DNA of 64,000 nucleotides from Bacteroidales bacterium (GTDB taxonomy: Bacteria > Bacteroidota > Bacteroidia > Bacteroidales > UBA932): the NCBI GenBank assembly GCA_017437755.1, contig JAFRXI010000019.1, positions 1 to 64,000 on the forward strand, read 5' to 3'. The stretch's first letter is position 1. Every line of letters starts with the position of its first letter. Shown one piece after another: positions 22,272 through 60,181 of this stretch. The translations under genes and the position numbers were made by a program. The notes below the pieces were generated by a model. That model was not told the origin of the DNA. It searched no databases and saw only the letters and a list, made by a program, of their open reading frames with translations.

Positions 22272-22403
22272 ATGACCAACGACAGAATGACAGATGCCCT
22301 GCGGTATGTCCGGCCTGCAGTACGCATCCGCGACCTGAACCTTGAAACAAGCTTCATGTCGCCCCAACTTCCGGACTACACTGAAATAGAGGAGGAATGG
22401 TAA
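22272..22403 (+). CDS. Tiny Y-P/acidic-W protein upstream of surface lipoprotein (copy A)
   Basis: This frame encodes 43 residues with no signal peptide. It has the core LRYVRPAVRIRDL and ends in EIEEEW. The last codons GAG-GAG-GAA-TGG form a strong Shine-Dalgarno tract, and the TAA overlaps the ATG of the next gene at 22403 (TAATG), so its translation should be coupled to the lipoprotein. Three other frames in the window share the same layout and residues (26656, 37492, 60041). I know no named family for it, though similar short hypothetical proteins occur near fimbrillin genes in Bacteroidales. It could be a leader peptide, a small regulator or a chaperone-like partner. Confidence 0.65.
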   Translation: MTNDRMTDALRYVRPAVRIRDLNLETSFMSPQLPDYTEIEEEW

Positions 22404-25393
22404 TGAAAAAGATCCTGACCCTTTGCCTCGGAGCAGCGGTGCTGCTCGCGGGCTGCGCCAAGGAGATCGACTCTCCCAAGGCCACCATCGGAAAGACGGT
22501 CATTACCGTCTCCACCCCCCAGACCAAGACATCGTTCGGTGAACTGGACGGAACCAAGCGCCCTGTGTATTGGGCAAGCGGCGACAAGATTGCCGTAAAC
22601 GGAGTCACTTCGGCAGCTGTTCCCGCCGAAGCCGTTGGCACCGCATCAGCCGAGTTCACCTTTGAAGGTGTCCTTGAGACCCCTTACAAGATCGTCTATC
22701 CCTCAACCATTTGGAAAGACGCTTCCACCATCACCCTCCCCGCAGTGGCGACCAGCGGAGTGGTTCCCCTCATAGGATACAGCGCCGACAATGCCAACGC
22801 CGACCTCACCGCGGGTACCGCCGTTGTGAAGATCTCCGTGAAGGCCGCGGCCGCCACTCCGGCCGCAGCTCCCGACACCGACCCGCTGAGCTACATCCAG
22901 ATTTCAGCCGACAACCGCCTCAGCGGCGACTTCTCGGTTGATTTCGAGAGCGGCGCACTCACCCCTGCAGCTAGCCCCGCCGACAAAGACAAATCCGTTA
23001 CTGTCAGCACAAGTGTCACCCTTGGCGACACTCCCGTGGAGTACTACATCCCCGTTCCTGCAGGAACCTATTCCTTCACGGTGAAGATTGCCGACAAGGC
23101 AGGCCACTTCATGGAAAAGACCACCACCTCGGCAAAGACCCTGGTGGCAGGCCAGATTTCGGCCTTCCCCGTGATCGAGTTTGTCCCGACCGGCACCCAG
23201 ATCGACGCGGAAATCCATAATGCAGCCGAGCTCATCGCCTTTGCAAAGGATTGGAATTCAGAGAAATGGCCTGTGAGCGCCATTGCCAAGGTGGTTGAGG
23301 ACATTGTCTTTGACGAGACCTCCTCGGCCGAGTTCAACGCCACCGGCGGTATCGGAAACATCATCAGTGACGACAATACCAACTACTTCAACGGCGACTT
23401 CGACGGCGGAGACCACACCATCTCCGGCCTTGCTGCCAGTGTTCCGCTGTTCGCCTACACCGGCAGCGCAGGAATAGTCCACAACGTCAAGATAGCCCAA
23501 TCCACCACCCTTACCGTTCCTGCAGGGGCAAATGGCCAGTTCGGCATGATTGTGGGACGCCACAAGGGTGCTCTCAAGAATTGCGAGAGCGCAGGTAAAC
23601 TTGTGATCCAGAACATCGACGCGGAAGATACCCAGTACTATGGAGGCCTGGTTGGACGCAGCGTGGGCGGTTCTATAGAGAACTGCAGCATGACGGGTGA
23701 GGTCAGCTATACGGGAGATGCCACTGCAAATTCCGGCTTTACCGCTTATATCGGCGGCTTGACCGGGACGGTGGAAAGCGGCGCTTCCGTAAAGACATCC
23801 AAGTTCGGCGGAAAAATCTTTATCGGAGACCCGTCAAGTTCAGAAGCCGGGCCTAATATGGCCGGAAAATACTTGAACATAGGAGGAATATCAGGCAGCA
23901 TCCACTCAGAAGCAAAGTCTGAAATCAGTGGTTGCGAGACTTTGGAAGGAGCAACCATTAAACTTCAGGGCGTCATGAAGTCAAGGATCGGAGGTATTGT
24001 GGGCTATGCAAATGATGCTGACTCAAAGGTTTCGGATTGCGTGAACCGGGCTCCGCTATCCTTTGCTTCCAGTGGTGCGCGTGCTGATACCACACCTATT
24101 AGCATCGGTGGAATTGTGGGAGACAGCGTTTCCGACATTACCGGCTGCACCAACTACGGAAGTATTTCGTCCTTGTGCAACAGTACCACAGTCGGCCTCG
24201 GAGGAATCGTTTCCACGGCATTCTGCAATGTCAAGGACTGCATCAATGAAGAGACTGGGACCATCACCCGTACCTGCCAGACTGCAGGTACGCAGTCCAA
24301 CCGCTACAACGCCTTTGGAGGAATAGTAGCTCAACTTAAAAATGAATCAGGATCCATGCTAGTCGAGAACTGCGAGAACAAGGCTGCCATCACCCACAAC
24401 CTCCCCGGAACGCAGGCATTGACCTCACAGTGCCTCGGCGGTATTGTCGGCAAGAATGACTATTCAGGATCCCTGATAGTCAAGGGCTGCAAGAACAGCG
24501 GCAAGTTATATGCGGAAGACAAGACCAATAAGACCAAGTTCTACCTTACCGCAATCGGAGGCATCCTAGGATGTTGCAAAGGTCAAGTAACCATAGAGGA
24601 CAGTCATAACACTGCTGAAATCAACTGCTCATACACAAAGGGAGGCACAAATAACCGTAATTCACATGTTGGAGGAATAGCTGGTATTATCGCCAAGTTT
24701 GACGCTCCAAATAATCCACAGGTGAATGGGGAATCTACTCCAAGCGGTATAACTAACCCTGTAGGAATTGCCGGGATTAGTATTACGGGATGTTCAAGTA
24801 CAGGATTGATCCACAATCAGAACTACAACAACACACTAACTATGGTTGGTGGTCCTGTGGGAGGAGGAATTGTCGGCACCGTAATCGGTACCGATGACAG
24901 CAAGGCCAAGATTTCCGACTGCACCGCTTCACCAAGCCCAATGGTAGAACTAAGAGGATACCTGGGCGGCATTGCCGGTTATATCCAAGACGTAAACATG
25001 ACTAACTGTATCATGGACGGCAACTCCACCACATCCAATCCCAACTCCACATATCTGGCCGGCCTGGCCGCATGGGTGATAGCATCATCCATCGAGAAAT
25101 GCACCGTAAAGGGAAGCACCCTGGCTGGTCCCAAGAATGTGGCAGGCTTCGTGGGAATACTTGATGCCACTTCCTCAATCATCGGTTGCAAGGCCGAGGG
25201 CGTTACGCTTACTTCCGGTACGCATGACGCAGCCCTTGACGCAGCCGTATTCGTATCCAATGCCGAGGCTGGAGCAAAGATTACAGACTGCGGCGCTTCC
25301 GGAACTCTTGATGGTGACGCTATCTCTATGGATTCCAGATTCATCACCACTGATGCCGGTGCTGTCGTAAGCGGTACGTACATTATCGAATAA
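22403..25393 (+). CDS. Fimbrillin-like/GLUG giant surface lipoprotein A
   Basis: The 996-residue lipoprotein (VLLAGCAKE) begins with a fimbrillin-like domain at about residues 20-260 (KTSFGELDG, VYWASGDKIAVNGV, YKIVYPSTIW). About 680 residues of GLUG-type repeats follow, each with a conserved Cys after a short I-x-x or V-x-x stretch. The end (GTLDGDAIS...ITTDAGAVVSGTY) is shared with the paralogue at 26787. ATG 22403 is chosen over 22397 because of the spacing to GGAGGAATGG. It is probably a surface adhesin or glycan-binding scaffold; no catalytic motif is seen. Codon use becomes noticeably more AT-rich around 23850-24850. Confidence 0.8.
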   Translation: MKKILTLCLGAAVLLAGCAKEIDSPKATIGKTVITVSTPQTKTSFGELDGTKRPVYWASGDKIAVNGVTSAAVPAEAVGTASAEFTFEGVLETPYKIVYPSTIWKDASTITLPAVATSGVVPLIGYSADNANADLTAGTAVVKISVKAAAATPAAAPDTDPLSYIQISADNRLSGDFSVDFESGALTPAASPADKDKSVTVSTSVTLGDTPVEYYIPVPAGTYSFTVKIADKAGHFMEKTTTSAKTLVAGQISAFPVIEFVPTGTQIDAEIHNAAELIAFAKDWNSEKWPVSAIAKVVEDIVFDETSSAEFNATGGIGNIISDDNTNYFNGDFDGGDHTISGLAASVPLFAYTGSAGIVHNVKIAQSTTLTVPAGANGQFGMIVGRHKGALKNCESAGKLVIQNIDAEDTQYYGGLVGRSVGGSIENCSMTGEVSYTGDATANSGFTAYIGGLTGTVESGASVKTSKFGGKIFIGDPSSSEAGPNMAGKYLNIGGISGSIHSEAKSEISGCETLEGATIKLQGVMKSRIGGIVGYANDADSKVSDCVNRAPLSFASSGARADTTPISIGGIVGDSVSDITGCTNYGSISSLCNSTTVGLGGIVSTAFCNVKDCINEETGTITRTCQTAGTQSNRYNAFGGIVAQLKNESGSMLVENCENKAAITHNLPGTQALTSQCLGGIVGKNDYSGSLIVKGCKNSGKLYAEDKTNKTKFYLTAIGGILGCCKGQVTIEDSHNTAEINCSYTKGGTNNRNSHVGGIAGIIAKFDAPNNPQVNGESTPSGITNPVGIAGISITGCSSTGLIHNQNYNNTLTMVGGPVGGGIVGTVIGTDDSKAKISDCTASPSPMVELRGYLGGIAGYIQDVNMTNCIMDGNSTTSNPNSTYLAGLAAWVIASSIEKCTVKGSTLAGPKNVAGFVGILDATSSIIGCKAEGVTLTSGTHDAALDAAVFVSNAEAGAKITDCGASGTLDGDAISMDSRFITTDAGAVVSGTYIIE

Positions 25394-25436
25394 CCCTTGC
25401 CCTTTGCACAATCGGGCGAGTTTTAACGTCTTTTCG

Positions 25437-25470
25437 GTCCCGTCCGTGACAGCAGTGTCACGGACGGGAC
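25437..25470. terminator. Perfect 15-base-pair hairpin
   Basis: GTCCCGTCCGTGACA and its exact complement at 25456-25470 enclose a 4-base GCAG loop, 44 bases after the lipoprotein stop. There is no T-run directly after it, so it may be a terminator, a transcript-stabilising hairpin or a REP-like element. GATTC/GAATC and a second GGTCCCG follow at once. Confidence 0.55.
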
Positions 25471-25525
25471 TGATTCGTTTGAGAATCGGTCCCGCTCATG
25501 CAAACCGCCGCTGCCCGCAGGGTTT

Positions 25526-25556
25526 TTTGGAGAAATCTGGGGAAATGCCTACCTTG
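25526..25556 (+). promoter_or_regulatory. Possible promoter of msrA fusion
   Basis: TTTG at 25526-25529 is followed after 20 bases by TACCTTG, one base short of TAnnTTTG. The ATG at 25561 lies almost at the predicted transcript start, so the message may be nearly leaderless. Confidence 0.4.
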
Positions 25557-25560
25557 CGGC

Positions 25561-26505: not shown

Positions 26506-26613
26506 TTGCATTTTATCAAGGTTTTCTTTCCGTGAGAACGGGAGCGCCCCCTATACCTTTGAGACTCAACACGAAAGTCGCGTCAGGGGTGTTCACTTTT
26601 TCGAGATTATTAC

Positions 26614-26621
26614 TAACTTTG
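26614..26621 (+). promoter_or_regulatory. -7 promoter box
   Basis: TAACTTTG is an exact TAnnTTTG match 35 bases before the tiny gene at 26656. No clear TTTG lies at the expected distance upstream. It would drive the tiny gene and the giant lipoprotein at 26787. Confidence 0.55.
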
Positions 26622-26655
26622 TAAAACTTACCTATTGATATAAATTATTACGAAA

Positions 26656-26769
26656 ATGCAACTGAAGTATTTCCCTCCGCTGACGGAGATTGTAACTTTC
26701 CAGATGGAAAGAAGTTTGTGCGATTCCCTTCCTGAAGTCAAGGAAGAAAACCTTGAATGGGACGACTGA
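26656..26769 (+). CDS. Tiny Y-P/acidic-W protein (copy B)
   Basis: This 37-residue frame shares the pattern of the other three tiny proteins: YFPPLTEIVTF, a stretch with SLCDS, then an acidic tail ending EENLEWDD. It lies between a good -7 box and the giant lipoprotein gene, ending 17 bases before that gene's MKK start. The window's other copies overlap the downstream start, so coupling here is looser. The frame is short, so the evidence is the shared motif and position rather than length. Confidence 0.55.
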   Translation: MQLKYFPPLTEIVTFQMERSLCDSLPEVKEENLEWDD

Positions 26770-26786
26770 CCTTAAACACTTTTGCC

Positions 26787-29700
26787 ATGAAAAAGACAAA
26801 CTACATCCTTTGGATAGCGGGAGCCGTCATGATGCTCTCCGCAGTTTCGTGTGCCAGGCCGGAAATGGATGCCCCGGAAACCGTGAAACCCTCTGCCGGA
26901 ATGACGTTCCGCCTTGGTATTCCCGATGTGAAAACCAGCCTGGGCCCTTCTGAGAACCAGAGCCGCAAGGTCTTCTGGTCCAACGGTGACAAGGTTGCCA
27001 TCAATGGAATTGAATCAGTGGCGCTTTCTAACCTTCCCGACAACGCTACCACGGCGGACTTCATGCTGCCTCCCGACACTCAAGAGCCAGCGGCTCCATA
27101 TAAAATCATCTATCCTTCAGCTATTTACAAGGATGCTTCAACCGTCACCCTTCCTGCCGTACAGACTTGGAAGAGCGGCACCTTCGCCGACGGGATGTTC
27201 CCCATGGCCGGTTATTCCGAGGAAGGCTTCGATGCGGGCATGAAGTATCTCTGCGCCACGCTGAAGATTTCCGTAAAACTTGCCTCGGGCGACAACCCCG
27301 ATACCGACAAGATAACCCTCGTGACCTTCAAGGGAAAGGGCGGGGAACAGGTTTCGGGCGACTTTACCGTGGACTATGAGAACGCCACCCTTACCGGAGC
27401 TTCCCAGGCCGATGCGGACAAGTCGGTCTCCGTCAGCCTCAACCAGGCCCTTTCAAGCACGGCTCTGGATATCTTTGTGGTAGTCCCCGCCGGCACCTAT
27501 TCCGGCTTCACCGTCACCGTCCAGGACGCCAAGGGCCACACCATGGAAAAGAACCTCAACCACAACCAGGAACTCGTCGCCGGCAAACTCTACAATCTCC
27601 CCGAATTCGCCTTTGTGCCTACAGGAGAAGCCACCGGCATCGAAATCTGGAACGCCGAGCAGTTGATTAAGTTTGCAGAGGATTATAACAGCGGTGCTCT
27701 CGCCGATTATCCAGGTGGCCTAATCGCCACAGTAATGGATGACATTGATTTTGATGCTGAATGTACTAGTTATGAGAATGCTTCAGTGGCTTTCAATGCT
27801 ACAGGTGGCATCGGTACAGACGACGATGGTAACGGAGGTACTAATTATTTCAACGGTATTTTTAACGGAAACAACCATACTATCAGCAACCTGGCAGCCA
27901 CTGTTCCTGTCTTTGCATATACAGGTGGCAACGGGATTATACAGGATCTGACACTAGATTCTTCCTGTTCTCTCACTGTCAATACTTCTTCCGGCGTGAT
28001 TCATGGCGTTTTGATAGGCCGCCACAAAGGTCTAGTACAAAATTGCACAAGTAGTGTTTCTGTCACCATCAACAATATCCAGGACGTCTCGGTTAATGCC
28101 CAACACTATGGCGGACTGGTTGGCTATGTTCATGAAGGCACTATAAAGGACTGCTCTGTGACAGGCAGTATCACCTGCTCACAAACTGGACAGACAATAT
28201 CAGCCAACGAGGCCTACATTGGAGGTATTGCTGGTCGTATAACTCCTTCTGGTATTATTAATACTTGCTCGTTCACTGGCAATATCACTATTTCAGATGG
28301 TACCAACTATGGAGGCATTACTGCAGATAGCAAGAATTTTTATATCGGCGGTGTATTGGGGCGGGGCGAAAAAGCTATTATTTCTGGTTGTGATGCCGGT
28401 AAAGATGGGATATCAACCGCTATAGATGCACGTGGTACATTTATCCCTGCAGTCGGAGGTATTGTCGGATGGCTTGCACAAGCTACAGATTCTGAGATTC
28501 GTAACTGCAACAACTATATGTCCCTGAGTGTCTCAAACAATGGGGCGAGAGCCAACACAACTCCTTGTCGTATCGGGGGTATCGCAGCCCGCTCTGCTGC
28601 ATATATCACGGGTTGCACGAATAACGGAGCCCTTTCTTCTGTATCCAATTCGACCACACTGAATCTCGGCGGAATTGTTGCGGATGGAGTCAATGTTAGC
28701 AACTGTACCAATAACGCAGGTGGCACCATAACAAGGTCAAACGCGTCAGCAGCAGTTGGTCAAACAAACAGATACATGTATATCGGAGGTATCATGGGGC
28801 TCCCAAATGCTTCCGGTGATATCGTCGACTGCACCAATCATGCAGCCATTACCAGCAATATCCTTGGTACTGCCACTCAAACGACAATCGACATGGGCGG
28901 TATTGTTGGAGGAGGCAATGCTTCTCAGATAGATATTTCAGGTTGTGTTAATGACGGCGAAATAAAGCTTGACAATGACAACGAAGCTGCGGTTGCAACA
29001 GCAAGAAACGCCATTGGCGGCATTCTGGGCAATGCATCTCAAGCCGGCACCACCGTTTCGGGCTGCAGCAATAGCGGAAAGGTTTGGTGTAAAAACAATG
29101 CTGCCGGAACATATGGCAATATTCAAATCGGCGGAGGCATCGGTCATACTGCTGCTGAGACTTCCGTAACGGATTGTACCAACAGCGGAGAGATTATGTG
29201 TCAAAATCCTGGCGCTGCCATTTCGGCTTACGTAGATCTGGGTGGTATAGTCGGCTGTGCGGAAGCCTCAATTACTATTTCAGGGACAGCGGAAGATGCT
29301 ACCCTCAACAGCGGGCCTGTTACAGTTGTTCAGGCTAGTTCTAATGTTGCATATGCCCGTAACACACTGGGCGGCATCCTGGGCTACGGGAAAGGCGACA
29401 ACACCAAAATCAACAATTGCAAGAACACCGCAAAGATATATTGCAATCTGAGTGGCACTCTTGCCAATGGCCGTCCATCATATACAGGGGGCATAGTAGG
29501 ACTGCTTGCCAGCCTTTCATATACAGATAATGCTGCTTCTGGCCTTTCAGGGTTATCCGGCGCGGAAATTGGTCATTGCAACAATACTGGCGAGGTTAAT
29601 TCTGCAAATTATAATAACAGGGCCGGTAACAAGAATTCTCCTTTTGCTGGTGGTATTGCCGGACTTGTTTGCGGAAATAGTGAGAGCAGGGCTTCCATTC

Positions 29701-30188
29701 ACGACTGTATTGTTGGAACACAGACGGCCTATTTTTACAGAGGAGTAGGCGGTGGACTAATTGCGTATGCTAATAATTGCACCATTGAAGATAACACGAC
29801 ATCTGCAAACATGTCAGGGGCTAACGCCAATGTCAATGGAGTAGGCGGTATTGTCGGCCGTCTTTTCGATAGTTCAATGAACAACTGTACATTCAGCGGA
29901 AAAATTGCAAGGGCAAAGAATATAGGCGGCCTTGTTTACACTTTGAGTGAACAAGCAACCGGCTCTACCATCACTGAGTGCAAGGTTAACGGTGCTGTTT
30001 TGACGACTGGAACTGCAAGTGATAAAACCGCTGCAGCTGTGCTGGTCAGTATAACTGATGACAAAACAAATACCATCACCAATTGCGGAGTCAAGGGTAC
30101 GCTTGATGGAGCCGCGATCACCCTGTCATCCAACATGATCACAACAGATGGAGGGGCAACGGTGACAGGAACCTATCTGCTTGATTAG
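26787..30188 (+). CDS. Fimbrillin-like/GLUG giant surface lipoprotein B
   Basis: The 1133-residue lipoprotein (LSAVSC) has the same plan as the protein at 22403: a fimbrillin-like N-terminal domain to about residue 280 (VKTSLGPSEN, VFWSNGDKVAINGI, YKIIYPSAIY), then GLUG repeats to the end, and a matching C-terminus (GTLDGAAITL...ITTDGGATVTGTY). About seventeen repeats carry a Cys at the same place, for example IKDCSVTG, ITGCTNNG and VTDCTNSG. I start at ATG 26787 for the lipobox; 26757 overlaps the tiny upstream gene. The N-terminal part is GC-rich like its neighbours, while the repeat part from about 27650 is clearly AT-richer, suggesting acquisition or repeat exchange. Probable surface adhesin or binding scaffold. 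Confidence 0.8.
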   Translation: MKKTNYILWIAGAVMMLSAVSCARPEMDAPETVKPSAGMTFRLGIPDVKTSLGPSENQSRKVFWSNGDKVAINGIESVALSNLPDNATTADFMLPPDTQEPAAPYKIIYPSAIYKDASTVTLPAVQTWKSGTFADGMFPMAGYSEEGFDAGMKYLCATLKISVKLASGDNPDTDKITLVTFKGKGGEQVSGDFTVDYENATLTGASQADADKSVSVSLNQALSSTALDIFVVVPAGTYSGFTVTVQDAKGHTMEKNLNHNQELVAGKLYNLPEFAFVPTGEATGIEIWNAEQLIKFAEDYNSGALADYPGGLIATVMDDIDFDAECTSYENASVAFNATGGIGTDDDGNGGTNYFNGIFNGNNHTISNLAATVPVFAYTGGNGIIQDLTLDSSCSLTVNTSSGVIHGVLIGRHKGLVQNCTSSVSVTINNIQDVSVNAQHYGGLVGYVHEGTIKDCSVTGSITCSQTGQTISANEAYIGGIAGRITPSGIINTCSFTGNITISDGTNYGGITADSKNFYIGGVLGRGEKAIISGCDAGKDGISTAIDARGTFIPAVGGIVGWLAQATDSEIRNCNNYMSLSVSNNGARANTTPCRIGGIAARSAAYITGCTNNGALSSVSNSTTLNLGGIVADGVNVSNCTNNAGGTITRSNASAAVGQTNRYMYIGGIMGLPNASGDIVDCTNHAAITSNILGTATQTTIDMGGIVGGGNASQIDISGCVNDGEIKLDNDNEAAVATARNAIGGILGNASQAGTTVSGCSNSGKVWCKNNAAGTYGNIQIGGGIGHTAAETSVTDCTNSGEIMCQNPGAAISAYVDLGGIVGCAEASITISGTAEDATLNSGPVTVVQASSNVAYARNTLGGILGYGKGDNTKINNCKNTAKIYCNLSGTLANGRPSYTGGIVGLLASLSYTDNAASGLSGLSGAEIGHCNNTGEVNSANYNNRAGNKNSPFAGGIAGLVCGNSESRASIHDCIVGTQTAYFYRGVGGGLIAYANNCTIEDNTTSANMSGANANVNGVGGIVGRLFDSSMNNCTFSGKIARAKNIGGLVYTLSEQATGSTITECKVNGAVLTTGTASDKTAAAVLVSITDDKTNTITNCGVKGTLDGAAITLSSNMITTDGGATVTGTYLLD

Positions 30189-30202
30189 TTTTGATTTCGG
30201 AG

Positions 30203-30330: not shown

Positions 30331-30376
30331 AAAACGGGAATTAAGGCCAGGAAGGGCCGGGGACTGAATGTGTGAC

Positions 30377-30458
30377 TGCGCCCAACGTCCCAAATTATGG
30401 GACGGGCGAAGCAGAAAAAGGGCATTTTTGCGCCCAACGTCCCAAAAAATGGGACGGG
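30377..30458. repeat. Two direct copies of a 30-base palindromic box
   Basis: TGCGCCCAACGTCCCA starts at 30377 and again at 30429, a period of 52. Each copy holds CGTCCCA-5 bases-TGGGACG, a perfect 7-base inverted repeat, with loops AATTA and AAAAA. A half-site TTGGACGTTGG follows near 30470. Tandem palindromes upstream of the phosphoesterase at 30502 look like operator sites for a dimeric regulator, though hairpins in RNA are possible. Confidence 0.6.
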
Positions 30459-30501
30459 AAACACAAAAAATTGGACGTTGGAAGCATTTGAATGCAATTA
30501 T

Positions 30502-37491: not shown

Positions 37492-37629
37492 ATGGAAAAA
37501 CTTGATTTACAGACCTATGTACGCCCGGTAACAAGGGTGACGGTCCTGGACTCTAAACTCTCTTTCCTTTCACCTTTCACAACGGAAGGAAACGAAGATT
37601 ATTCCGAGGGAGGGGAATACGTATGGTAA
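37492..37629 (+). CDS. Tiny Y-P/acidic-W protein (copy C)
   Basis: The 45-residue frame has LQTYVRPVTRVTVL, a hydrophobic SFLSPF and an acidic tail ending EGGEYVW. Its last codons contain GAGGGAGGGG, a Shine-Dalgarno-like tract, and its TAA lies inside the start of the next gene, whose ATG is at 37623 (ATGGTAA). This seven-base overlap implies coupled translation with the 1388-residue lipoprotein. Motif and arrangement match the copies at 22272, 26656 and 60041. No signal peptide. Confidence 0.65.
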   Translation: MEKLDLQTYVRPVTRVTVLDSKLSFLSPFTTEGNEDYSEGGEYVW

Positions 37630-40600
37630 AGCGCATATCATCCGCCATCGCGTGCTGCCTGATACTGTTGGCGGCATCCTGCGTAAAAGAACAGTTCCAG
37701 CCCAGGGAGGACGGTCCGGCCAGGGAAGCGAGGATGGAAGCCGTCACATTCGAGGCATCCTTTTCGGAAACCGTAAAGACCACGCTCGACGGCCTCAAGC
37801 CGGTCTGGCTGGAAGGCGACCGGATAAGCCTGTTCGGTGCCACCGGAGTCAACAGTCCCCTATCGGTCGAGAATCCCGACGGCGGCAATGCCACCTTCTC
37901 CGGAACCGCAGAGGCCGACGGCCCGTTCACGGCTGTATATCCATACAGCGATGGCAACGCCATGGAAAGCGGGTCAGTGGTCGCCACCGTTCCAACGGAG
38001 CAGAAACTTGACGGTTCGGCAGTGGCCCCAGGAGCCATGCTGTCCGTAGCCAGGACTGAAGGTAAAAAGCTGAGTTTCAAGAATATTTGCGGACTGCTTA
38101 GGATTACTGTCGCCGATGAAGGCGTAACGGCCATAACCATCCGGTCGCTTGACGGAAGTCCCTTGTCGGGAACCGTCGCCGTAAATCCGGAAACCGCTGA
38201 AATCAAGGAAGTCAAGAACGGATCGGACCAGATAGTCCTGCTTCCAAAGGAAGCCTCATTCGCCCCCGGTACATACTCGGTGGCAGCCATCCCGGGCAAA
38301 AAGAAGGGTATAACCGTGGCCCTTTCCCGCGCCACCGATGCCAGGAAGGGGGCAAAGTCGTCCGCCAATACACTGGACCTTCCCAGGAATACCTCCATAT
38401 CGCTGGGCTCATTCCGCACCACCGGCCTGGAATGGGGCTACAGGATAGGCAATTATGCTGACCTTCTGGCATGGAAGAACGACAAGGCCAACTGGGACAG
38501 TGAAGGCGAAACGGTCCTGTTCACCGGCGACGTGGACATGAAGGACGAGCCATGGACAACCCTCACCGACAGCTATCCCGGCGAGATCCAGGGCAACGGC
38601 CACTGCATCAGCCATATCAACATCCAGTCTTCCTCGTCGGCCAACGTGGGCTTCTTCGGAAAGAACTATGCAAAGGAGATCCACGACCTGACATTTGGCT
38701 CCGAAGACGGCAAGACATACGACGGAACTTCCTGCATCATAAGCAGTTACCAGACCACCAGCACAAGCGCATACTGGAGCTACACGGCTCCCATAACGCT
38801 CCCCGGGGCCGACGTGATGAACGTCACCAATTTCATCCCCATAACCGTCAAGTCCACCATGAACCGTAGCAGCCGCACCGGAGGCATCGCCGCATGGGTA
38901 ACCTCCAAGGTGAGCATAATAGGATGCCACAATTACGGGACAATCACGGTGGAAGACCATACCATAACCGAAGGAAGCTCATACAAATACTTAGCTGCGG
39001 GAGGGATCCTCGGAGGAGCCAATACCGCAGATGCGGTTGTAACCGTCTCCGACTGCCACAACCACGCCACCATCCACAGCAACAACCACAGCATGATGGG
39101 GATGGGAGGCATAGTGGGCTTTTCCTATGCCACCCCCACTTCGGTAACAGTGACCGGATGCACCAACGACGGGAATCTGGAACTGGTATATTCGGCAACC
39201 CAGAATGATTTCTTCGCGGCGGGAGGCATATTCGGACGGTCGGCCAGCAAGGCCGCATCGGACGGCGGCCCCACCTGCGTCATCAGCGACTGCACCAACA
39301 AAGGGAAGGTCTACAGCGAGGCCGTCCACCAGCACTACGTGGGCGGGATCGTGGGACGCTCCGACGGAACCGACATATCTTCGTGCAGGAACGAGGGGGT
39401 GGTGGAGATCGACCATACGGCGCACCCTACCACACGCTTCCAGCACATGGGCGGAATCGTTGGAGGGACGATGACCGACGGAGGGTCCAATTCGCTGCGA
39501 AACAATGACAACAGCGGCACCCTGACCATGAAGGTGGCCTCGTCAGGACACAACAAGACGCCCAGTTCGTCCACTACCTACTATGGAGTGAACGCCGGAG
39601 GCATAATCGGGATGGCCAACAAGGTTTCCGCCATAGAGGGCAACACCAACAGCGGCACCATCCTGGCGGAAAACGCCTTCTCGGCTTCCAATGCAGCCTA
39701 TCCTGCAACCGTAAACGCCGGCGGGATACTGGGTTATGACTTTGGCACCGTCGACCGCTTTGCCGACAACACTTCCACAGGAACGGTCCAGGCAAAGACC
39801 ACAAAGGCCACTTCGGTTCCCGCTGAGGTTTACGCCGGAGGCAACATCGGCCGGATCCGCGAGGCTACCATCCTGAGCGGGAACGGGACCGGTACCGTCA
39901 AGGCGGAGTCCTCCGACGCGGCTGCACACCTGTGGGCCGGATCCATCGCCGGATACAATGGCGGGACCATCGTCACATGCTCCTACGGCGGAACCGTGAA
40001 CGGCGCAACTGCCGACGATACCAATATCGTGGGTGGCGGAAACGCACCCCAGTCAAGCGGTGGGGATCCCCTCCAGGGCGGAGAGTTCTCGGTGAGCGAA
40101 ACCGCAGTTGAGTTCCCCGGAGGCGGATTCAGCCGGAAACAGCTTACGGCCTCGGCCGGCGACAAGCCCGTAACCATCACTGCTGAAGGCCTTGACTGGC
40201 TCAAACTGGAAAGCATTCCAGAGGGGATCGAGGCCGGCAGCGCCACCATCATCACCCTGCTTCCAGCCACCGGAAACGTTTGCGACACAAGGGAAGGAAC
40301 CCTCACCTTCACCGAGCAGGGAGGCGAAACCAGGACCGTCACCATTACTCAGGGGGACCTCTACACGCCTGTCGACGGCTTCCCGGCCCGGTGGGAAATC
40401 GTCAAGGGATCCACCTACACCGAGGGTAACACCGCCGGGAAACGCTGGCTGAACGAGGGCGTGGCGGAAACGGTCTGTGCCGACGCAGCGGCCTCATCGC
40501 CTGGAACAGGCTATATATCAGCAGGTTCCACCACGGGCAACAAGCTGGTTTACTCTGTGGCGCCCAGCGGCACCCAGAACATCAGCATAGGAAACATGGG

Positions 40601-41789
40601 CGAGGGCGACTACATCCAGTTCAGCGTACCCACCGTCTCCATGCCCGCCGGCACCGACATCGACTTCATGGTCACCATCAATACAAACAACAACAAGACT
40701 CCAAAGTACTGGCTGTTCGAGTATTGGGACGGCGGCGAGTGGAAGGCGCAGCCCCGGTATACCGCAACCGAGGACGGCACCACGCGCTACTCTCTGGACG
40801 TATTTGACTATGACAGCAAGAATCACCGGACCTACATCACCACGTTCCGGCTGGGCAGCGCGGTGAACAACGACTTTGTGAAGATGCGCCTGAGGGCGGT
40901 GGGTCCCTTCAACTGCAACGGCGACGCCCTTGTGCCCACTCCCAACGCCTACATGAACTTCCCGTGCATGACCTACCACTCGTGCGTGATAGCCGCCTAC
41001 CCCGGCATCCCGGCCAAGGAAAGCACCCCGGTGAAACTGCTCCAACTTGGAAACAGCTTCACATACTATAACGGTTCGGCATTCAAACTCAAGCAGATAT
41101 GCCGTGCCGAGGGACATGCCACCGACGTAAGGATCAATGTCAAGGGCTCGCAGGAATTCGAGCATCACCTGGACCTGCTGCCATTCTCGCAGAGGCTGGT
41201 GGCAGAGGGCGGATATGACAAAGCCATACTCCAGGACGGTTCCTACTTCCATGCCGAATATGGCGCCGGAGACGCCTCCGCAATCCAGGGCGTCGAGGCC
41301 AAGTACTCTCCGGAGGAGATACTGGCCCTTACCAAACGGATGACCGCGGCCGTAAAGGCCAATTCATCCGGAGCCGATATCATACTGGAAAGTACCTGGT
41401 CATACCCGTACAAGACCGTCGGAAACTTCCTCGGATTCGGGAGTTATGAGAATTTTGACGCCATGATGTGGAAAGGCGTAACCGAGATTGCCGCAGCCGA
41501 TCCCAACGTAAACTGGATATCTCCCATCGGCAAGGCCTTCGCCCTGGCCCGCAGCGACACCTACGGCTACAAGGACAGCGTCAATTACCTGCTTTACACC
41601 GACAATTACCATCCCCACAGGTACGGTTCATACCTGAAAGCCTGCGTGAATTACCTGATACTGTTCGGGGAACCCTTCGGCTCACATCCCGCCGACTGCG
41701 ACATTCCCGCCGCGGATGCCGCCAAACTGCGGGAAATCGCCACGAAGATAGTCCTGGACGCGGGCCGTGACACCTACCACGTAAGGTAG
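37623..41789 (+). CDS. Fimbrillin-GLUG lipoprotein with C-terminal SGNH-like (DUF4886) domain
   Basis: The 1388-residue lipoprotein (LLAASC) has a fimbrillin-like domain (about 35-260; VKTTLDGLKPVWLEGDRISL), GLUG repeats (about 270-800), a BACON-like domain (about 820-915), a beta-sandwich-like region (about 930-1120) and a DUF4886 domain from about 1135. That domain has LLQLGNSFTYYNG, matching the GDS block of SGNH hydrolases, and DNYHPHRYGSYL, matching the Asp-x-x-His block. It may therefore deacylate surface glycans while the front part binds them. The stop is two bases from the pfkA stop on the other strand. It lies outside both PULs but shares their surface modules and upstream tiny gene. 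Confidence 0.8.
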   Translation: MVKRISSAIACCLILLAASCVKEQFQPREDGPAREARMEAVTFEASFSETVKTTLDGLKPVWLEGDRISLFGATGVNSPLSVENPDGGNATFSGTAEADGPFTAVYPYSDGNAMESGSVVATVPTEQKLDGSAVAPGAMLSVARTEGKKLSFKNICGLLRITVADEGVTAITIRSLDGSPLSGTVAVNPETAEIKEVKNGSDQIVLLPKEASFAPGTYSVAAIPGKKKGITVALSRATDARKGAKSSANTLDLPRNTSISLGSFRTTGLEWGYRIGNYADLLAWKNDKANWDSEGETVLFTGDVDMKDEPWTTLTDSYPGEIQGNGHCISHINIQSSSSANVGFFGKNYAKEIHDLTFGSEDGKTYDGTSCIISSYQTTSTSAYWSYTAPITLPGADVMNVTNFIPITVKSTMNRSSRTGGIAAWVTSKVSIIGCHNYGTITVEDHTITEGSSYKYLAAGGILGGANTADAVVTVSDCHNHATIHSNNHSMMGMGGIVGFSYATPTSVTVTGCTNDGNLELVYSATQNDFFAAGGIFGRSASKAASDGGPTCVISDCTNKGKVYSEAVHQHYVGGIVGRSDGTDISSCRNEGVVEIDHTAHPTTRFQHMGGIVGGTMTDGGSNSLRNNDNSGTLTMKVASSGHNKTPSSSTTYYGVNAGGIIGMANKVSAIEGNTNSGTILAENAFSASNAAYPATVNAGGILGYDFGTVDRFADNTSTGTVQAKTTKATSVPAEVYAGGNIGRIREATILSGNGTGTVKAESSDAAAHLWAGSIAGYNGGTIVTCSYGGTVNGATADDTNIVGGGNAPQSSGGDPLQGGEFSVSETAVEFPGGGFSRKQLTASAGDKPVTITAEGLDWLKLESIPEGIEAGSATIITLLPATGNVCDTREGTLTFTEQGGETRTVTITQGDLYTPVDGFPARWEIVKGSTYTEGNTAGKRWLNEGVAETVCADAAASSPGTGYISAGSTTGNKLVYSVAPSGTQNISIGNMGEGDYIQFSVPTVSMPAGTDIDFMVTINTNNNKTPKYWLFEYWDGGEWKAQPRYTATEDGTTRYSLDVFDYDSKNHRTYITTFRLGSAVNNDFVKMRLRAVGPFNCNGDALVPTPNAYMNFPCMTYHSCVIAAYPGIPAKESTPVKLLQLGNSFTYYNGSAFKLKQICRAEGHATDVRINVKGSQEFEHHLDLLPFSQRLVAEGGYDKAILQDGSYFHAEYGAGDASAIQGVEAKYSPEEILALTKRMTAAVKANSSGADIILESTWSYPYKTVGNFLGFGSYENFDAMMWKGVTEIAAADPNVNWISPIGKAFALARSDTYGYKDSVNYLLYTDNYHPHRYGSYLKACVNYLILFGEPFGSHPADCDIPAADAAKLREIATKIVLDAGRDTYHVR

Positions 41790-52042: not shown

Positions 52043-52043
52043 C

Positions 52044-52454
52044 ATGAGAAAGGCCATCCTCACAATCCTGATGATCCTGCTCTGGGCACTGCCCGGATGC
52101 AGGAAAAACAGCTTTGAAGACAGCAGCACGTTCGCAATCCACTACATGGGCATTTCCAACATACATCCCGGCGAGACGGCCACCTCATCGCCCTCATACC
52201 TGGGAGCCGCCCCCACCGGATTCAGCATCTACTCCGTGGTTTTCAACGGGAACATATTCTACGACCCCAGGATCGACGGCCCGCTGGACGGGAACAGCAT
52301 TTTCTATGTGGACCCGGGCACCGGTACCTTCAAGATACAGAACACCTCTTCGCTGAAGGCGGGTACCTACAAGGTAAGCGTCAAATGCAGCTCGGCCGGA
52401 AAGCAATACGACTGCCCGGACGCAATCACAATCATAATGTTAAAGGAAAAGTAG
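52044..52454 (+). CDS. Small Ig-like surface lipoprotein
   Basis: The 136-residue lipoprotein (LPGCRK) consists of one predicted beta-sandwich: GISNIHPGE, YVDPGTGTFKIQNTSSLKAG and YKVSVKCSSAG resemble the N-terminal Ig/cadherin-like repeat of surface glycan-binding proteins in PULs. It is too short to contain the usual binding domain, so it may be a reduced relative or a spacer protein. It starts one base after the lyase stop and ends six bases before SusC, so it belongs to the operon. Confidence 0.75.
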   Translation: MRKAILTILMILLWALPGCRKNSFEDSSTFAIHYMGISNIHPGETATSSPSYLGAAPTGFSIYSVVFNGNIFYDPRIDGPLDGNSIFYVDPGTGTFKIQNTSSLKAGTYKVSVKCSSAGKQYDCPDAITIIMLKEK

Positions 52455-52460
52455 AACGCC

Positions 52461-55562: not shown

Positions 55563-55566
55563 CACG

Positions 55567-57249
55567 ATGAAAAGAACCGCCACCATATTCATCGCCCTGC
55601 TGCTCGGGGTCACCTCCTGCAGGATGGAGGAAACATTCTATAACTACATCGACGCCACCGATTACATAAAGGACGCCACAAGCGCCAGGAACGTGCTGTA
55701 CGGGGTTTACAGGAACATGAGCACCAACGACCTGTACGGCTACCACCTGTCCATCATCTTTGACATGCCCACCGACATTTCCAAGGTGGACGAGGCTTCC
55801 GTTGTCAACGGGCGCGACGTGTGCTGGAACGCCCACACCGCCGACAATTCCCGCGTCCTGGGCACCTGGTCGGCCGCATACAACGTCATATACAACGCCA
55901 ACGACTTCCTGGAGAAAGTGACTGCCGCCAGGGAGGATATGCCGGAGGATGACAAGGAAATCGTGGACCTGTACATAGCCGAAGCCCGCTCGATCAGGGC
56001 CCTCATGTACTTTGAGCTGGTGAGGCTCTTCGGCGGGGTGACCCTCATCACTTCCACGGCCCAGTCGTTCCAGCATCCCTCCACCTTTGTAAGGAACGAC
56101 CCGGAAGAGATCTACTCCTTCATAGAGGGAGAGTTGGAAGAATGCGCCGGAATCCTGCCCTGGGCCCAGGACGACCAGGTCCGCTCCGACAACAGCTTCA
56201 TGTTCTCCAAGGCCGGAGTACTGGGACTGCTGGCAAGGGTGTACGCCACCCATGCCGGCTACCCGCAGCGGAAAACCGGGAAATGGCCGGATTGCGAGAA
56301 TTGCTGCCGGCAGATAATAGAGGCCGGTTACAATTCGCTCCTCACCGACTACGAAACCCTATGGAAAAACTGCTGCAACGGAGTCTGGGACCCCACGGAA
56401 GCATTGATACAGATATGTTTCTATTCCAAAAGCATATCCTCCCTGTCGTCCCAGAACAACAGCGGATACATCGGGAAATGGAACGGCGTACACGTAAAGA
56501 CCAACAGTTCCAAACTGGTCAGGGTTGACGCGCGCCAGAGGGCCGTGAGCGTCTTCATGGCCAGGTGGAAAGACCTGGAGATGGACAAGCGGTGGGCCCT
56601 CAGCGCAGCCGACTATTCCTACGACGGGGAGGATTTGGTTCCGATGTGCACTTCCAAAGCCGGGGAGTACATACCTTTCTCCCAGGCCATGTACGGCTCC
56701 TCCACGCAGAGGGACAACTTCAAGAAAGGCCTTTACATAGCCAAGTACGACCTCACCAAATACCAGGACAAGGCCAACATGATATCCGACGGCAACTATT
56801 CCAATGCCAACTGGTACCTCCTGCGCTATTCCGACGTCCTGCTCCTCTTTGCGGAGGCCCTGAACGAGATCAACGGCGGCCCCACCGACGAGGCCTACGA
56901 GGCCGTGAACACTGTGCGCCGCAGGGCATTCGGACTGCCCGTGGACGAGCCCTCGGAAGCGGCCGACCTTGAACCCGGGATGGACCATGACCGCTTCCTG
57001 ACGGCCCTGCAGGACGAAAGGGCCTATGAACTCTGCTTTGAAGGGAACCGCAAGCAGGACCTCATCCGCTGGGGCATCTATTACCGGAAAATCCAGAACA
57101 CGATTTACGAGCTGGAAGACTTCCGCGAGGGCTTCGGCATCAAGTCGACCCTCTACGACAAGACTGTGGAAGGGAAGCATGAACTCCAGCCCATCCCCCA
57201 GAGGGAGAAAGACCTCATGACGCAATATACCCAGAATCCCAATTGGTAA
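55567..57249 (+). CDS. SusD/RagB-family lipoprotein
   Basis: The 560-residue lipoprotein (GVTSCRM) is a classic SusD: ARNVLYGVYRNM near residue 45, AEARSIRALMYFELVRLFGG near 145, YPQRKTGKWPD near 235, LLRYSDVLLLFAEALNEING near 420, ERAYELCFEGNRKQDLIRWG near 490 and QPIPQREKDLM at the end. I use ATG 55567; the frame begins earlier inside susC. It forms the lid of the upstream transporter. Confidence 0.94.
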   Translation: MKRTATIFIALLLGVTSCRMEETFYNYIDATDYIKDATSARNVLYGVYRNMSTNDLYGYHLSIIFDMPTDISKVDEASVVNGRDVCWNAHTADNSRVLGTWSAAYNVIYNANDFLEKVTAAREDMPEDDKEIVDLYIAEARSIRALMYFELVRLFGGVTLITSTAQSFQHPSTFVRNDPEEIYSFIEGELEECAGILPWAQDDQVRSDNSFMFSKAGVLGLLARVYATHAGYPQRKTGKWPDCENCCRQIIEAGYNSLLTDYETLWKNCCNGVWDPTEALIQICFYSKSISSLSSQNNSGYIGKWNGVHVKTNSSKLVRVDARQRAVSVFMARWKDLEMDKRWALSAADYSYDGEDLVPMCTSKAGEYIPFSQAMYGSSTQRDNFKKGLYIAKYDLTKYQDKANMISDGNYSNANWYLLRYSDVLLLFAEALNEINGGPTDEAYEAVNTVRRRAFGLPVDEPSEAADLEPGMDHDRFLTALQDERAYELCFEGNRKQDLIRWGIYYRKIQNTIYELEDFREGFGIKSTLYDKTVEGKHELQPIPQREKDLMTQYTQNPNW

Positions 57250-57265
57250 CAAACCTAATAAACAT

Positions 57266-57724
57266 ATGAGAATGAATCGAATACTGATCCCGATCGCGGC
57301 AGCCCTCCTGCTTCTCTCCTGCGGCAAGCCCAAAGAGGAGCCAAAGGCTGCCATCAACATCGCGGTTACGGAAATCGGCAGCAGGACCGCCACCGTGAAC
57401 GTCACCTGCGAGGGGCCTTCACCGGCCCTGGTCAGGTTGACGGATCCCATCCTGAAAGAGGAGTTTCCCTCTTCGGCCGCCGAGGAGCAGATGACCGACT
57501 TCATCAAGACGCACGGGTCGGCCGTGAGCGTCCCCTACACCAGCGCCCTGAAGGACCTGTTTCCCGGACATGACTATGTGATAGGCGCGGTCTCTTTCAA
57601 CGGGAACATGGAACTCATGGCCTGGACCACCATGGAATTCAGGACCGAGGACCTGGGCACCACCACGGTAGGCGACCCCAGCGGAGCAGGTTCACTGACC
57701 GGCAATGAATTGGAGGACCTGTAA
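57266..57724 (+). CDS. Small lipoprotein, FN3-like
   Basis: The 152-residue lipoprotein (LLLLSCGK) has one predicted beta domain resembling a fibronectin-III or Ig fold (AVTEIGSRTATVNVTCEG) and a Gly/Thr-rich tail ending GNELEDL. No catalytic motif is visible. It follows susD by 16 bases and its last codons supply a GGAGG tract for the next gene, which begins one base after the stop. Probably an accessory surface protein of the PUL; ATG 57272 is an alternative start. Confidence 0.75.
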   Translation: MRMNRILIPIAAALLLLSCGKPKEEPKAAINIAVTEIGSRTATVNVTCEGPSPALVRLTDPILKEEFPSSAAEEQMTDFIKTHGSAVSVPYTSALKDLFPGHDYVIGAVSFNGNMELMAWTTMEFRTEDLGTTTVGDPSGAGSLTGNELEDL

Positions 57725-57725
57725 T

Positions 57726-60032
57726 ATGAAAAAGCTGATACTGATATGCCTGGCGGCCCTTTCAGCGGGCGCCTGCGTGATGGAACAGATGGAAGCCCCT
57801 GCCGGAAAGGCCGGGGGTAAGGGCCTGGTGTTCGAGGGCGGCTTCGCCCCCGAGACCAGAATCGCCTACGGGGACGCCGTGAACGGCATTTATCCGCTCC
57901 AATGGACCCGCGGCGACATGATAGGCATCTTCTCTTACAAGGCCTCCGAAACCTCCAACAAGAACATAAAGGGCGAGTTGTACGAGGATTACATCGGCGA
58001 GAACAAGGGAATCTTCATCCCGGTTGACGTCATCCATGAAATCCCGCCTGAAATCGAAGGCGGAGCACCCGTGGAGATTGTGGAAAGGATCCAGTATCCA
58101 CAGGGGTCCGACGAGGATTTCTTTGTCTACTACCCCTTCAAGGACGGAGCCGAACTGGTTCCCGACGAGGAAAGCGACGCCATCTGCTTCCTTTCCAGGC
58201 TGGACAAGGTCCAGTCGCAGCAGGAACTGGGCGACAGGATAGTCGGTAACAACGGCTTCTCCGCCGCCTTCGCCAGCGTGAAGGCCGGTTCCGGGAAAGC
58301 TACATTCGAGTTGCAGCACAAGATGGCGTACATCTGCTTCAAGGCCACCTCCTCGGAATTCAGCGGATACCAGCTCCATTCCGTCCAGCTTTACGACGCC
58401 GCCAAGGAGGCCAGTCTCTGCGGAAGCTACAGCTACAACCTCGCCACGGGAACCCTGAAGGCCGCCCCGGGCAAATCCGAATCGAGTGCCAAGGTGGTCG
58501 CGGCCCATCACGACTGGTCCCGCACTCCGGAGCGTAACGAACTCTGTCTCACCGTATTCCCCGGCGACTACTCCGCCGCCGACATGTATGTCATAGTAAC
58601 CTTCATGAACCAGGCGGGAGAGACCCAGACCATCCCCTTCAAGCTTCAGAAGAAGTGCCGGTTCCCCGCCGCATCGCTTACGGTGCTGGACCTCGGCGAC
58701 ATCGGCACCGCCGACAACCGGTTCCCCTGGTTCGAGACCCACGAGGTCCGCTCCCTGGTGGACATGTACGCCTACGGTTCTGAGAACACCTACATGGCCC
58801 AGCACTTTATCCGCAAGGTCTCAACCGAGAGACCCAAGGACCATGTGGTGATAGACGTGAAGCCCCGCGGCGACTTCAGCAAGGTTACCGAGCCCAAGTA
58901 CTACGCCCTGCTGGTTCCCTCCGAGATGGGCTGCACCAGCATCGCCAGCAACACCCGCAAGCTCCTCTGCCTCAACGACAGCGGTAACCAGTTCAAGCGC
59001 GAGGCAACGCCCACCCACGTGGTGAATGCCGACTACACCATTGACGTATGGACCCTCGACACCACCGCCGGAACCGGCACCTGGGGCGTTGTGGGCCTGT
59101 ACGACGCGGACTACAACCTCATCTGGTCGTACCTGGTCTGCACCTATCTTGAAGGGCAGCCGGTGGGCGACGTGACCTACGGGCCGGGCATGACAGTCAT
59201 GGACAGGTGGCTGGGTCAGGAGAATAGCAACAGGCGCTGCGCCCAGCTCAAGACCTTCGTCACCGACAAGACCGACACCACCCGTGCAATCAGCGGTGTG
59301 CTTCCATTCTTCCAGTGGGGCCGGAAAGATGCCTTCAACTGGTCCAATTCCGGCGGAGCGGAAGGTATTTATAAATCCGTCCTGGCCGATGACAACACCA
59401 CCATCGAGGACGGAATCAAGAACCCCACCACCCACCTGGGCTATTCCAGCGGGGCAACCAGCTGGGATTCGCACGGCGACTGGCATAGTGAGGGAATCCG
59501 CACCGACCTCTGGGGTGGCTACAACGACAACGGCAGCGAATGGTACGACCCGGATGCAACCGGCCACAAGACAGTGTTCGACCCCTGCCCTGCCGGATAC
59601 CGCGTCCCGGATGCCAAAGTGCTGAAGTTCGTCGGGGACCATGCCGAGATCTGGGAATCCCCCAACGAGCATGCCTACCAGGTGACGGATCCCGCCAGCA
59701 GCAGCTGTTACCTCAATCCGGAATCGCCTTTCTACAAGACCAGCAAGGGCTTCTCGGTCCTGGCCGTCAAGGATATCTTCGGCGAATACGACTACTGGTA
59801 CTTTGCCGGCTTCAGCGGCAACGGCGACAACTACAACAGCCGTACGGACAACTCCAAGAATAAGGCTCTGGAAACCTGGAGCAACGCCGTGAGCAATGCC
59901 GACAACAGGGCCTTCGGCCGTGCCGCAGTCCTGGAATACGGCTATTGGAGCACCCAGCGGCTGTTCAACGAACGCCATTCCGCACAGCGGGCCTATCGCT
60001 ACCCCGTACGTTGTCAGAAAATCGATAACTAA
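57726..60032 (+). CDS. Fimbrillin-like surface lipoprotein with FISUMP-like C-terminus, 1
   Basis: The 768-residue lipoprotein (SAGACVME) has a fimbrillin-like N-terminal half (about 30-330; ETRIAYGDAVNG, LQWTRGDMIGIFS). The C-terminal half (about 480-765) has the Trp- and Gly-rich pattern of FISUMP-type modules: FFQWGRKDAFNW, RTDLWGGYND, FDPCPAGYRVP and a final YRYPVRCQ. It is probably displayed on the cell surface and may bind the target glycan. The protein encoded at 60178 has the same plan. ATG 57726 gives the lipobox. Confidence 0.78.
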   Translation: MKKLILICLAALSAGACVMEQMEAPAGKAGGKGLVFEGGFAPETRIAYGDAVNGIYPLQWTRGDMIGIFSYKASETSNKNIKGELYEDYIGENKGIFIPVDVIHEIPPEIEGGAPVEIVERIQYPQGSDEDFFVYYPFKDGAELVPDEESDAICFLSRLDKVQSQQELGDRIVGNNGFSAAFASVKAGSGKATFELQHKMAYICFKATSSEFSGYQLHSVQLYDAAKEASLCGSYSYNLATGTLKAAPGKSESSAKVVAAHHDWSRTPERNELCLTVFPGDYSAADMYVIVTFMNQAGETQTIPFKLQKKCRFPAASLTVLDLGDIGTADNRFPWFETHEVRSLVDMYAYGSENTYMAQHFIRKVSTERPKDHVVIDVKPRGDFSKVTEPKYYALLVPSEMGCTSIASNTRKLLCLNDSGNQFKREATPTHVVNADYTIDVWTLDTTAGTGTWGVVGLYDADYNLIWSYLVCTYLEGQPVGDVTYGPGMTVMDRWLGQENSNRRCAQLKTFVTDKTDTTRAISGVLPFFQWGRKDAFNWSNSGGAEGIYKSVLADDNTTIEDGIKNPTTHLGYSSGATSWDSHGDWHSEGIRTDLWGGYNDNGSEWYDPDATGHKTVFDPCPAGYRVPDAKVLKFVGDHAEIWESPNEHAYQVTDPASSSCYLNPESPFYKTSKGFSVLAVKDIFGEYDYWYFAGFSGNGDNYNSRTDNSKNKALETWSNAVSNADNRAFGRAAVLEYGYWSTQRLFNERHSAQRAYRYPVRCQKIDN

Positions 60033-60040
60033 TCAGATAT

Positions 60041-60181
60041 ATGGAAAAAATCACATCTACCCAAAGGTGTTACAACACACCCACGCTCAGGATCGTTTCC
60101 CTGTATTCCGAGCAGAACTATTGTGCAACCGGAACCCATCCCGGGGATGCCGGCAACTTTGAAGAAGATCTCTGGTCATGA
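60041..60181 (+). CDS. Tiny Y-P/acidic-W protein (copy D)
   Basis: The 46-residue frame contains CYNTPTLRIVSLY, then an NYCATG stretch and an acidic tail FEEDLWS. Its TGA overlaps the next ATG at 60178 by the ATGA arrangement, so the next lipoprotein is likely translated by coupling. It lies eight bases after the preceding fimbrillin-like gene. It shares core and tail pattern with copies A-C and has no signal peptide. Confidence 0.65.
   Translation: MEKITSTQRCYNTPTLRIVSLYSEQNYCATGTHPGDAGNFEEDLWS

Follow-up and report, generated by a model that had tools for sequence, protein, structure and literature searches.

Candidate precursors and the closest described systems

Among described systems, the closest to the one considered here is that of the linear polyphosphorylated peptides (LPPs), ribosomally synthesized and post-translationally modified peptides (RiPPs) with lppAKBSDN of Paenibacillus alginolyticus as reference system. 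In the parts of PMC13381572 drawn on here, the LPP core genes are those for SpI, a RiPP recognition element (RRE), an HprK-like kinase, a nucleotidyltransferase (NTP transferase), and an MsbA-like transporter, often found in capsule loci, and LPPs are described as restricted to Bacillota, with a biological role called unknown. We analyzed a 64,000-nucleotide stretch (positions 1 to 64,000 of contig JAFRXI010000019.1, assembly GCA_017437755.1; the window) from a Bacteroidales bacterium, which encodes four tiny proteins, each directly ahead of a gene for a surface lipoprotein. An earlier note on this DNA could assign these proteins no function; the evidence presented below points to RiPP precursors. 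We consider it probable, at roughly 0.77, that they are precursors of an LPP-like pathway in Bacteroidales, with machinery acting in trans and dispersed precursor copies that are each paired with a surface lipoprotein.

As in LPPs, the candidate precursors are short; they have YxxP near the N-terminus, vary toward the C-terminus, and in nearly all copies show Ser or Thr past the leader, a partial fit to the LPP leader motif. The candidate machinery comprises an SpI-like peptidase, a discrete RRE, an HprK/PEPCK-type kinase, an NTP transferase, and an MsbA-like exporter, with polysaccharide genes nearby. In contrast to the Bacillota systems, the host belongs to the Bacteroidales, one genome carries dozens of dispersed precursors, almost all of them with a surface lipoprotein as partner, and the leader of the copies recovered with a DNA pattern (described below) has the form YEAPxVEVIEVxVExGFAxS, without the HQ and FET of the LPP consensus YxxPxVLxHQxIxFETxxS (PMC13381572).

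Lasso peptides, the paeninodin type included, also rely on a discrete RRE that reads [Y/W]xxP, and a kinase and an NTP transferase occur there too, according to the parts of PMC13381572 drawn on here. The lasso macrolactam cyclase, sought as an Asn_synthase-type homologue as in L216, was detected at 0 of 37 loci, with L216 and L207 found as positive controls. Stand-alone RREs with their own adjacent WxxP precursor-like open reading frame (ORF) were observed in relatives at L216 and L207 (G013:C1) and at L212, and two Asn_synthase proteins are encoded at L216, an arrangement also found in lasso clusters of the paeninodin type. The prochlorosins of Prochlorococcus likewise combine a single modifying machine with many precursors that share a constant leader and differ in their core, but their chemistry is that of lanthipeptides and their precursors have no surface-protein partners. 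The window resembles the type V fimbriae (FimA/Mfa1) of Bacteroidales in its neighboring lipoproteins, which include an Mfa-like protein and GLUG proteins; it differs in that no signal peptide is present in the tiny proteins, and no small YxxP protein is known to us as a fimbrial component. The GG-leader RiPPs of Bacteroidales, as presented in the parts of PMC10352776 used here, resemble our candidates in having precursors with N-terminal leaders and differ in their GG motif and peptidase-containing transporters; the string "fimbri" is absent from the text of that paper.

We found no earlier report of an LPP-like pathway in Bacteroidota in the open-licence literature of PubMed Central (PMC). 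Within it, "linear polyphosphorylated peptide" occurs in PMC13381572 only, whose main text contains "Bacteroid" 0 times; among the matches listed, no title or abstract opening connects fimbrillins with small or precursor peptides; and the consulted parts of PMC12806405 give 14 RRE-containing clusters among 81 and do not name an LPP-like type. If our reading is correct, a RiPP class known from Bacillota would extend to another phylum, Phocaeicola vulgatus ATCC 8482 included, and tiny hypothetical proteins outside all curated families searched would gain a testable role. It would also provide a first functional lead, in that surface lipoproteins accompany the precursors and the predicted released part co-varies with the lipoprotein.

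The tiny protein family and its lipoprotein partners

The four tiny ORFs and the genes that follow them in the window are listed below.

22272..22403, + strand: tiny protein 1, 43 residues, predicted RiPP precursor; Tyr12 taken as position 0, Ser at +18
22397..25393, + strand: partner lipoprotein, 998 residues, GLUG motif (Pfam)
26656..26769, + strand: tiny protein 2, 37 residues, predicted RiPP precursor; Ser at +19, EWDD at the tail end
26757..30188, + strand: partner lipoprotein, GLUG motif (Pfam); likely start at 26787
37492..37629, + strand: tiny protein 3, 45 residues, predicted RiPP precursor; Ser at +18
37623..41789, + strand: partner lipoprotein, 1388 residues, GLUG match below the Pfam cut-off
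60041..60181, + strand: tiny protein 4, 46 residues, predicted RiPP precursor; Thr at +19
60178..62007, + strand: partner lipoprotein, 609 residues, no Pfam match

These frames are present exactly as previously reported, and the absence of a signal peptide from the tiny proteins was upheld. All four stops overlap the first ATG of the next ORF by 4–13 bases; for tiny protein 1, whose tail reads PDYTEIEEEW, the overlap is 7 bases, while the 26757 ORF has a likelier ATGAAAAAG start at 26787, 17 bases past the tiny-ORF stop. A TAACTTTG box lies upstream of tiny protein 2. Given that the ORFs at 22272 and 60041 begin 20 and 8 bases after the stop of the preceding gene, these two are internal cistrons. 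Frameshifting or read-through into the lipoprotein was considered and ruled out by the reading frames and by gaps that vary among copies. A double-glycine (C39) leader was weighed on inspection of the sequences and not favored.

The earlier note had placed the tiny proteins before fimbrillin-like lipoproteins, of which the lipoprotein half holds in four of four cases, each downstream product starting with a lipoprotein-type signal sequence as judged by eye. The fimbrillin half is weaker: GLUG was matched in two partners, below threshold in one, and in one not at all, and no partner matched the fimbrillin Pfam family (Mfa_like_1/FimA) at E ≤ 0.01. Among the eight window proteins scanned, the sole Mfa_like_1 match was 57705, which has no tiny ORF ahead of it, and neither do the metallophosphatase-type lipoproteins 17717 and 30397. 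A tie to fimbrillins as such was thus not borne out: the partner is a surface lipoprotein, GLUG-bearing or unnamed, and at two loci in other genomes (L246 and L247, below) the tiny protein precedes a kinase gene instead.

Searches of Pfam and NCBIfam assigned the four tiny proteins to 0 families, and 26 family members gave 0 NCBIfam matches and three single-member Pfam matches at E 0.049 or worse. A profile built from the four sequences recovered ten more believable copies in the same genome (2.88 Mb, 76 contigs, 85% complete), so that the proposal of a genuine protein family stands. Of the motif described for it, the Y-x-x-P core was retained and the "Cys patch" was not, a better core being Y-x-x-P ... 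E ... [FIL]-x-x-[S/T]. Our widest profile returned 38 own-genome matches at E ≤ 1, of which 31 reach E ≤ 0.01. An internal stop interrupts one of these, many are rows of the profile, and E values go down to 4.5e-12 among matches of which several are themselves profile rows. After one fragment without YxxP was dropped, 29 distinct peptides remained at E ≤ 0.01. YxxP is present in 29/29 (a precondition of the count), Ser/Thr stands at +18/+19 in 27/29, and the acidic tail with Trp described earlier persists as net acidity in 29/29 and as Trp within the last eight residues in 21/29. The expectation of mainly synonymous substitution was confirmed by ratios of nonsynonymous to synonymous polymorphism (pN/pS) of 0.12–0.27 in four informative close pairs of tiny ORFs, a fifth pair being identical. 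A lipoprotein gene follows 28 of the 29 copies, mostly at gaps of −7 to +32 bases, under a lipobox rule that is looser than the one applied to the pattern set below and has no control of its own; the 29th copy (L034) fails because its downstream start lacks K/R. Near one own-genome module, L014 also carries an ORF of the HicA_toxin family (463–663, + strand; Pfam 3.2e-12).

Homologues were also found beyond this genome. An order-wide profile search at E ≤ 0.01 matched 29 of 392 Bacteroidales genomes, each at least 90% complete except the source genome, and 19 of 204 genera, with some searched genomes having contributed sequences to the profiles. An early profile had matched 12/41 genomes, every one in the genus of the window, another that predates the order-wide search 11/247, and a later one 26/392, a subset of the 29. 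The DNA pattern YEAPxxEVxxVxxExGF, scanned over the genome_contigs collection, gave 67 matches in 64 stretches, and with a single exception these carry labels of Bacteroidales groups (Bacteroides, Phocaeicola, Mediterranea, Alistipes, and others). The exception, L183, is labelled "Clostridia bacterium" and carries a typical Bacteroides-like module; its contig is probably misbinned. The plasmid collection, searched with one module, gave no match.

The 67 pattern matches correspond to 65 distinct peptides, of which four lie too close to a contig end, leaving 61 testable. Under the strict rule, a lipoprotein follows 55 of these 61, compared with 56/1460 other short ORFs and 17/181 long ORFs as controls; of the six that fail, L158, L172, and L191 are lipoprotein-like by eye, L188 is unclear, and L179 and L197 have none. 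Gaps to the next gene reach 83 bases and once 205. Although the pattern does not specify position +19, Ser/Thr occupies it in 65/65 intact pattern ORFs. Among 66 distinct DNA matches (66/66 with Ser/Thr when L175, which has a stop at +9, is read beyond that stop), this column holds Ser 64 times and Thr twice, the Ser codons being 49 AGY and 15 TCN.

The tail varies together with the lipoprotein. Across the 29 own-genome modules, the Mantel correlation with lipoprotein similarity was 0.58 for the tail and 0.31 for the leader; once recent duplicates were removed (27 modules), the tail retained r 0.38 (p 0.001) while the leader fell to 0.03 (p 0.31). In a cross-species set of 59 modules, both parts correlated with the lipoprotein, the tail more strongly; with duplicates removed, the 54 modules left gave r 0.30 for the tail versus 0.19 for the leader, both at p 0.001. 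A constant leader that serves a shared machine and a variable core matched to its own lipoprotein would produce such a difference, which is suggestive at most because shared descent of whole modules contributes to it.

Candidate machinery, its co-occurrence, and predicted leader recognition

In the source genome, a locus on contig C63 (13944–17446) holds an S24/S26 protease, a PqqD-type RRE, an NTP_transf_5 nucleotidyltransferase (PF14907), and an ABC exporter together, near polysaccharide-export genes (Poly_export, Wzz), and a PEPCK/HprK-like kinase gene lies on a different contig, C21. The RRE is a discrete protein (G000:C63:14423–14686) that matches PF05402 at 2.5e-13 and, at E 6e-45, a profile containing it. 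The adjoining protease, which fits the archaeal/SipW type of signal-peptidase-like leader peptidase, matches PF00717 at 6.2e-7 and PF10502 below the cut-off, with invariant SMxP and His; its profile matches SEC11A (2.4e-5) and, below the cut-off, TIGR02228 sigpep_I_arch. In L215, the NTP transferase (PF14907, 1.4e-38) is accompanied by an ABC_membrane/ABC_tran exporter, and at the genus loci L218–L221 no NTP transferase gene was found beside the RRE. HprK was not among the 50 structures listed. No precursor inside a biosynthetic cluster was found in the genome of the window; a local YxxP precursor beside its RRE was sought, with none by profile and regular-expression matches that we judged spurious. 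On contig C21, two tiny-protein copies stand ∼8–11 kb upstream of the separate kinase gene (L278, G000:C21:78000–97900).

The machinery and the tiny proteins occur in the same genomes. With RRE and protease profiles (A5, A6) built solely from the genus of the window, and counts taken by hand from the profile-match tables, the RRE was present in 27 of the 29 genomes with a tiny-protein match versus 28 of the 363 others (Fisher p 3e-24); by genus, in 17/19 versus 21/185 (p 1.5e-12); and at E ≤ 1e-14, in 23/29 versus 7/363. The protease showed the same counts as the RRE (27/29 and 28/363), and 335 of the 337 genomes without an RRE also lacked a tiny-protein match. Furthermore, the RRE was present in 12/12 genomes reached from 12 of the 64 pattern loci, one of these genomes being the record that was sampled as G211 too, and an internal stop interrupting one of the RRE matches. 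A tiny ORF stands no more than 6 kb from the RRE or protease in 8 of 27 genomes, against 0.74 expected with this radius, which was set after the matches had been seen. Gene orders at linked loci are as follows.

L246: RRE, tiny ORF, kinase, protease, exporter; the tiny ORF stands between RRE and kinase
L247: tiny ORF, kinase, protease, RRE, NTP transferase, exporter; the tiny ORF is 38 bases before the kinase
L248: kinase, protease, RRE, NTP transferase, tiny ORF, lipoprotein; the tiny ORF is ∼120 bases past the NTP transferase
L251 and L252: tiny ORF and lipoprotein inside the cluster
Phocaeicola vulgatus ATCC 8482: tiny ORF, 943-residue lipoprotein, RRE, NTP transferase, exporter, kinase, protease, every gene on the same strand

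The tiny protein of P. vulgatus has the sequence METNNMEMYEAP..., and the linked tiny ORFs of L248, L249, L250, L251, L252, and L253 are each followed by a lipoprotein gene. Given that the candidate precursor directly precedes the kinase gene at L246 and L247, the tiny protein is not simply a translation signal for a lipoprotein.

The YxxP N-terminus of the tiny proteins resembles leaders that are read by RREs. Across 17 diverse Bacteroidales RREs, just four positions are invariant, N35, Y63, A70, and D73, which align via 9x8z with N33, Y60, V67, and D70 of LppB (numbered as 9x8z chain numbers minus 18, an offset that we set and that fits the residues named in the paper). In the LppB crystal structure, the leader Tyr sits in a pocket lined by Y60 and V67 and is hydrogen-bonded by D70, and N33 fixes the kink at the Pro; many PQQ and lasso RREs likewise conserve N33 and D70 (PMC13381572, in the parts used here). 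The RRE profile also matches TfuB1 and TbiB1, and 64 of 66 pattern loci have a +5 residue that fits the RRE motif.

Proposed pathway and competing explanations

The sequences themselves show the protein family and its linkage to lipoprotein genes. They also show that the machinery is present, co-occurs with the family, and in some genomes is physically linked to it, and that the RRE has leader-reading residues. Building on these findings, we infer a pathway of binding, phosphorylation, cleavage, export, and action with the lipoprotein. The discrete PqqD-type RRE would grip the N-terminal YxxP leader, an HprK/PEPCK-type kinase would phosphorylate the near-invariant Ser/Thr ∼19 residues past the Tyr, and the nucleotidyltransferase may add to the phosphate. 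The signal-peptidase-like Ser/His protease would then remove the leader, and the MsbA-type exporter would release the acidic tail. In the source genome, this machinery would be encoded once, in trans (C63:13944–17446 plus the C21 kinase), and would serve ∼30 scattered precursors. Since nearly every precursor is co-encoded with a lipoprotein and the tail co-varies with it, the mature peptide most likely acts with this lipoprotein at the cell surface. A bolder version, in which ∼30 phosphopeptides made by one machine form a surface code, with each peptide leaving the cell and joining its co-encoded giant lipoprotein, by binding or covalently, so that adhesin-like surface proteins carry a modified peptide ligand, is a tentative and rather unlikely extension.

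Several observations weigh against an LPP-like pathway. In the source genome, the precursors and the RRE locus are unlinked and the kinase stands apart, in an assembly of 76 contigs that is 85% complete. The LPP leader consensus is matched in part, without FET and HQ and with the Ser one residue further on, and at +5 only 13 of the 29 own-genome copies, and two of the four in the window, agree with the RRE motif. The alignment of the RRE with LppB is itself weak (E 0.014), and since N33 and D70 are kept in other YxxP-reading RREs, they support YxxP reading generally, not LPP membership. Some members, such as that at 60041, have Thr, whereas LppK left an S3T variant unphosphorylated; LppN was inactive in the heterologous host (both from the parts of PMC13381572 considered here). 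Genomes G174 and G278 have a tiny-protein match but neither an RRE nor a protease match, 6 of the 28 genomes whose protease match is strong (G355, G186, G242, G188, G360, and G099) have no tiny-protein match, genome-wide or near the cluster, and several machinery matches are weak or in long frames (e.g., G059 and G062).

Among other explanations, the same RiPP pathway could yield a bacteriocin or signal, with the lipoprotein as immunity protein or receptor and not as display partner. RiPPs are often weapons, and cognate immunity would fit the co-variation of tail and lipoprotein; however, ∼30 copies per genome beside large surface proteins would be unusual for immunity, and we regard this as unlikely. 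The tiny ORFs could instead be leader cistrons that only couple translation to the lipoprotein gene, the peptide being a by-product. Their stops do overlap or adjoin the lipoprotein start, by 4–13 bases in the window and mostly at −7 to +32 in the source genome, and machinery-linked tiny ORFs still mostly precede a lipoprotein gene (L248–L253). Yet the tiny ORFs are under purifying selection, retain Ser/Thr from two codon blocks, stand directly before a kinase gene without a lipoprotein at L246 and L247, co-occur with the RRE, and show pattern-set gaps of up to 83 and once 205 bases, which leaves leader cistrons highly improbable.

We give slightly less credence to a small cytosolic chaperone or adaptor, unrelated to any RiPP pathway, that binds its own lipoprotein before export: co-varying tails and the 28 of 29 copies that precede a lipoprotein would suit it, but it leaves both the tie to RRE, protease, and kinase and the near-invariant Ser/Thr unexplained. 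Finally, although YxxP-containing short ORFs do arise by chance in a window of 57% GC, the idea that the tiny ORFs ahead of lipoprotein genes are chance frames or artefacts of composition is refuted by the strength of the own-genome profile matches (several of them profile rows), by the low pN/pS, and by the near-complete lack of tiny-protein matches in RRE-less genomes. RiPP precursors of an LPP-like pathway thus remain our preferred reading.

Two further features were noted in the window. On the + strand, ORFs 19399–19755 and 19912–22251, the latter matching metallophosphatase-type domains, share a frame and are separated by an in-frame TAG at 19753–19755; they are possibly a single broken lipoprotein gene. 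A short inverted repeat, CGTCCCA...TGGGACG, occurs twice (30386–30404 and 30438–30456) at the mechanical start of lipoprotein ORF 30397, the true start of which is probably further downstream.

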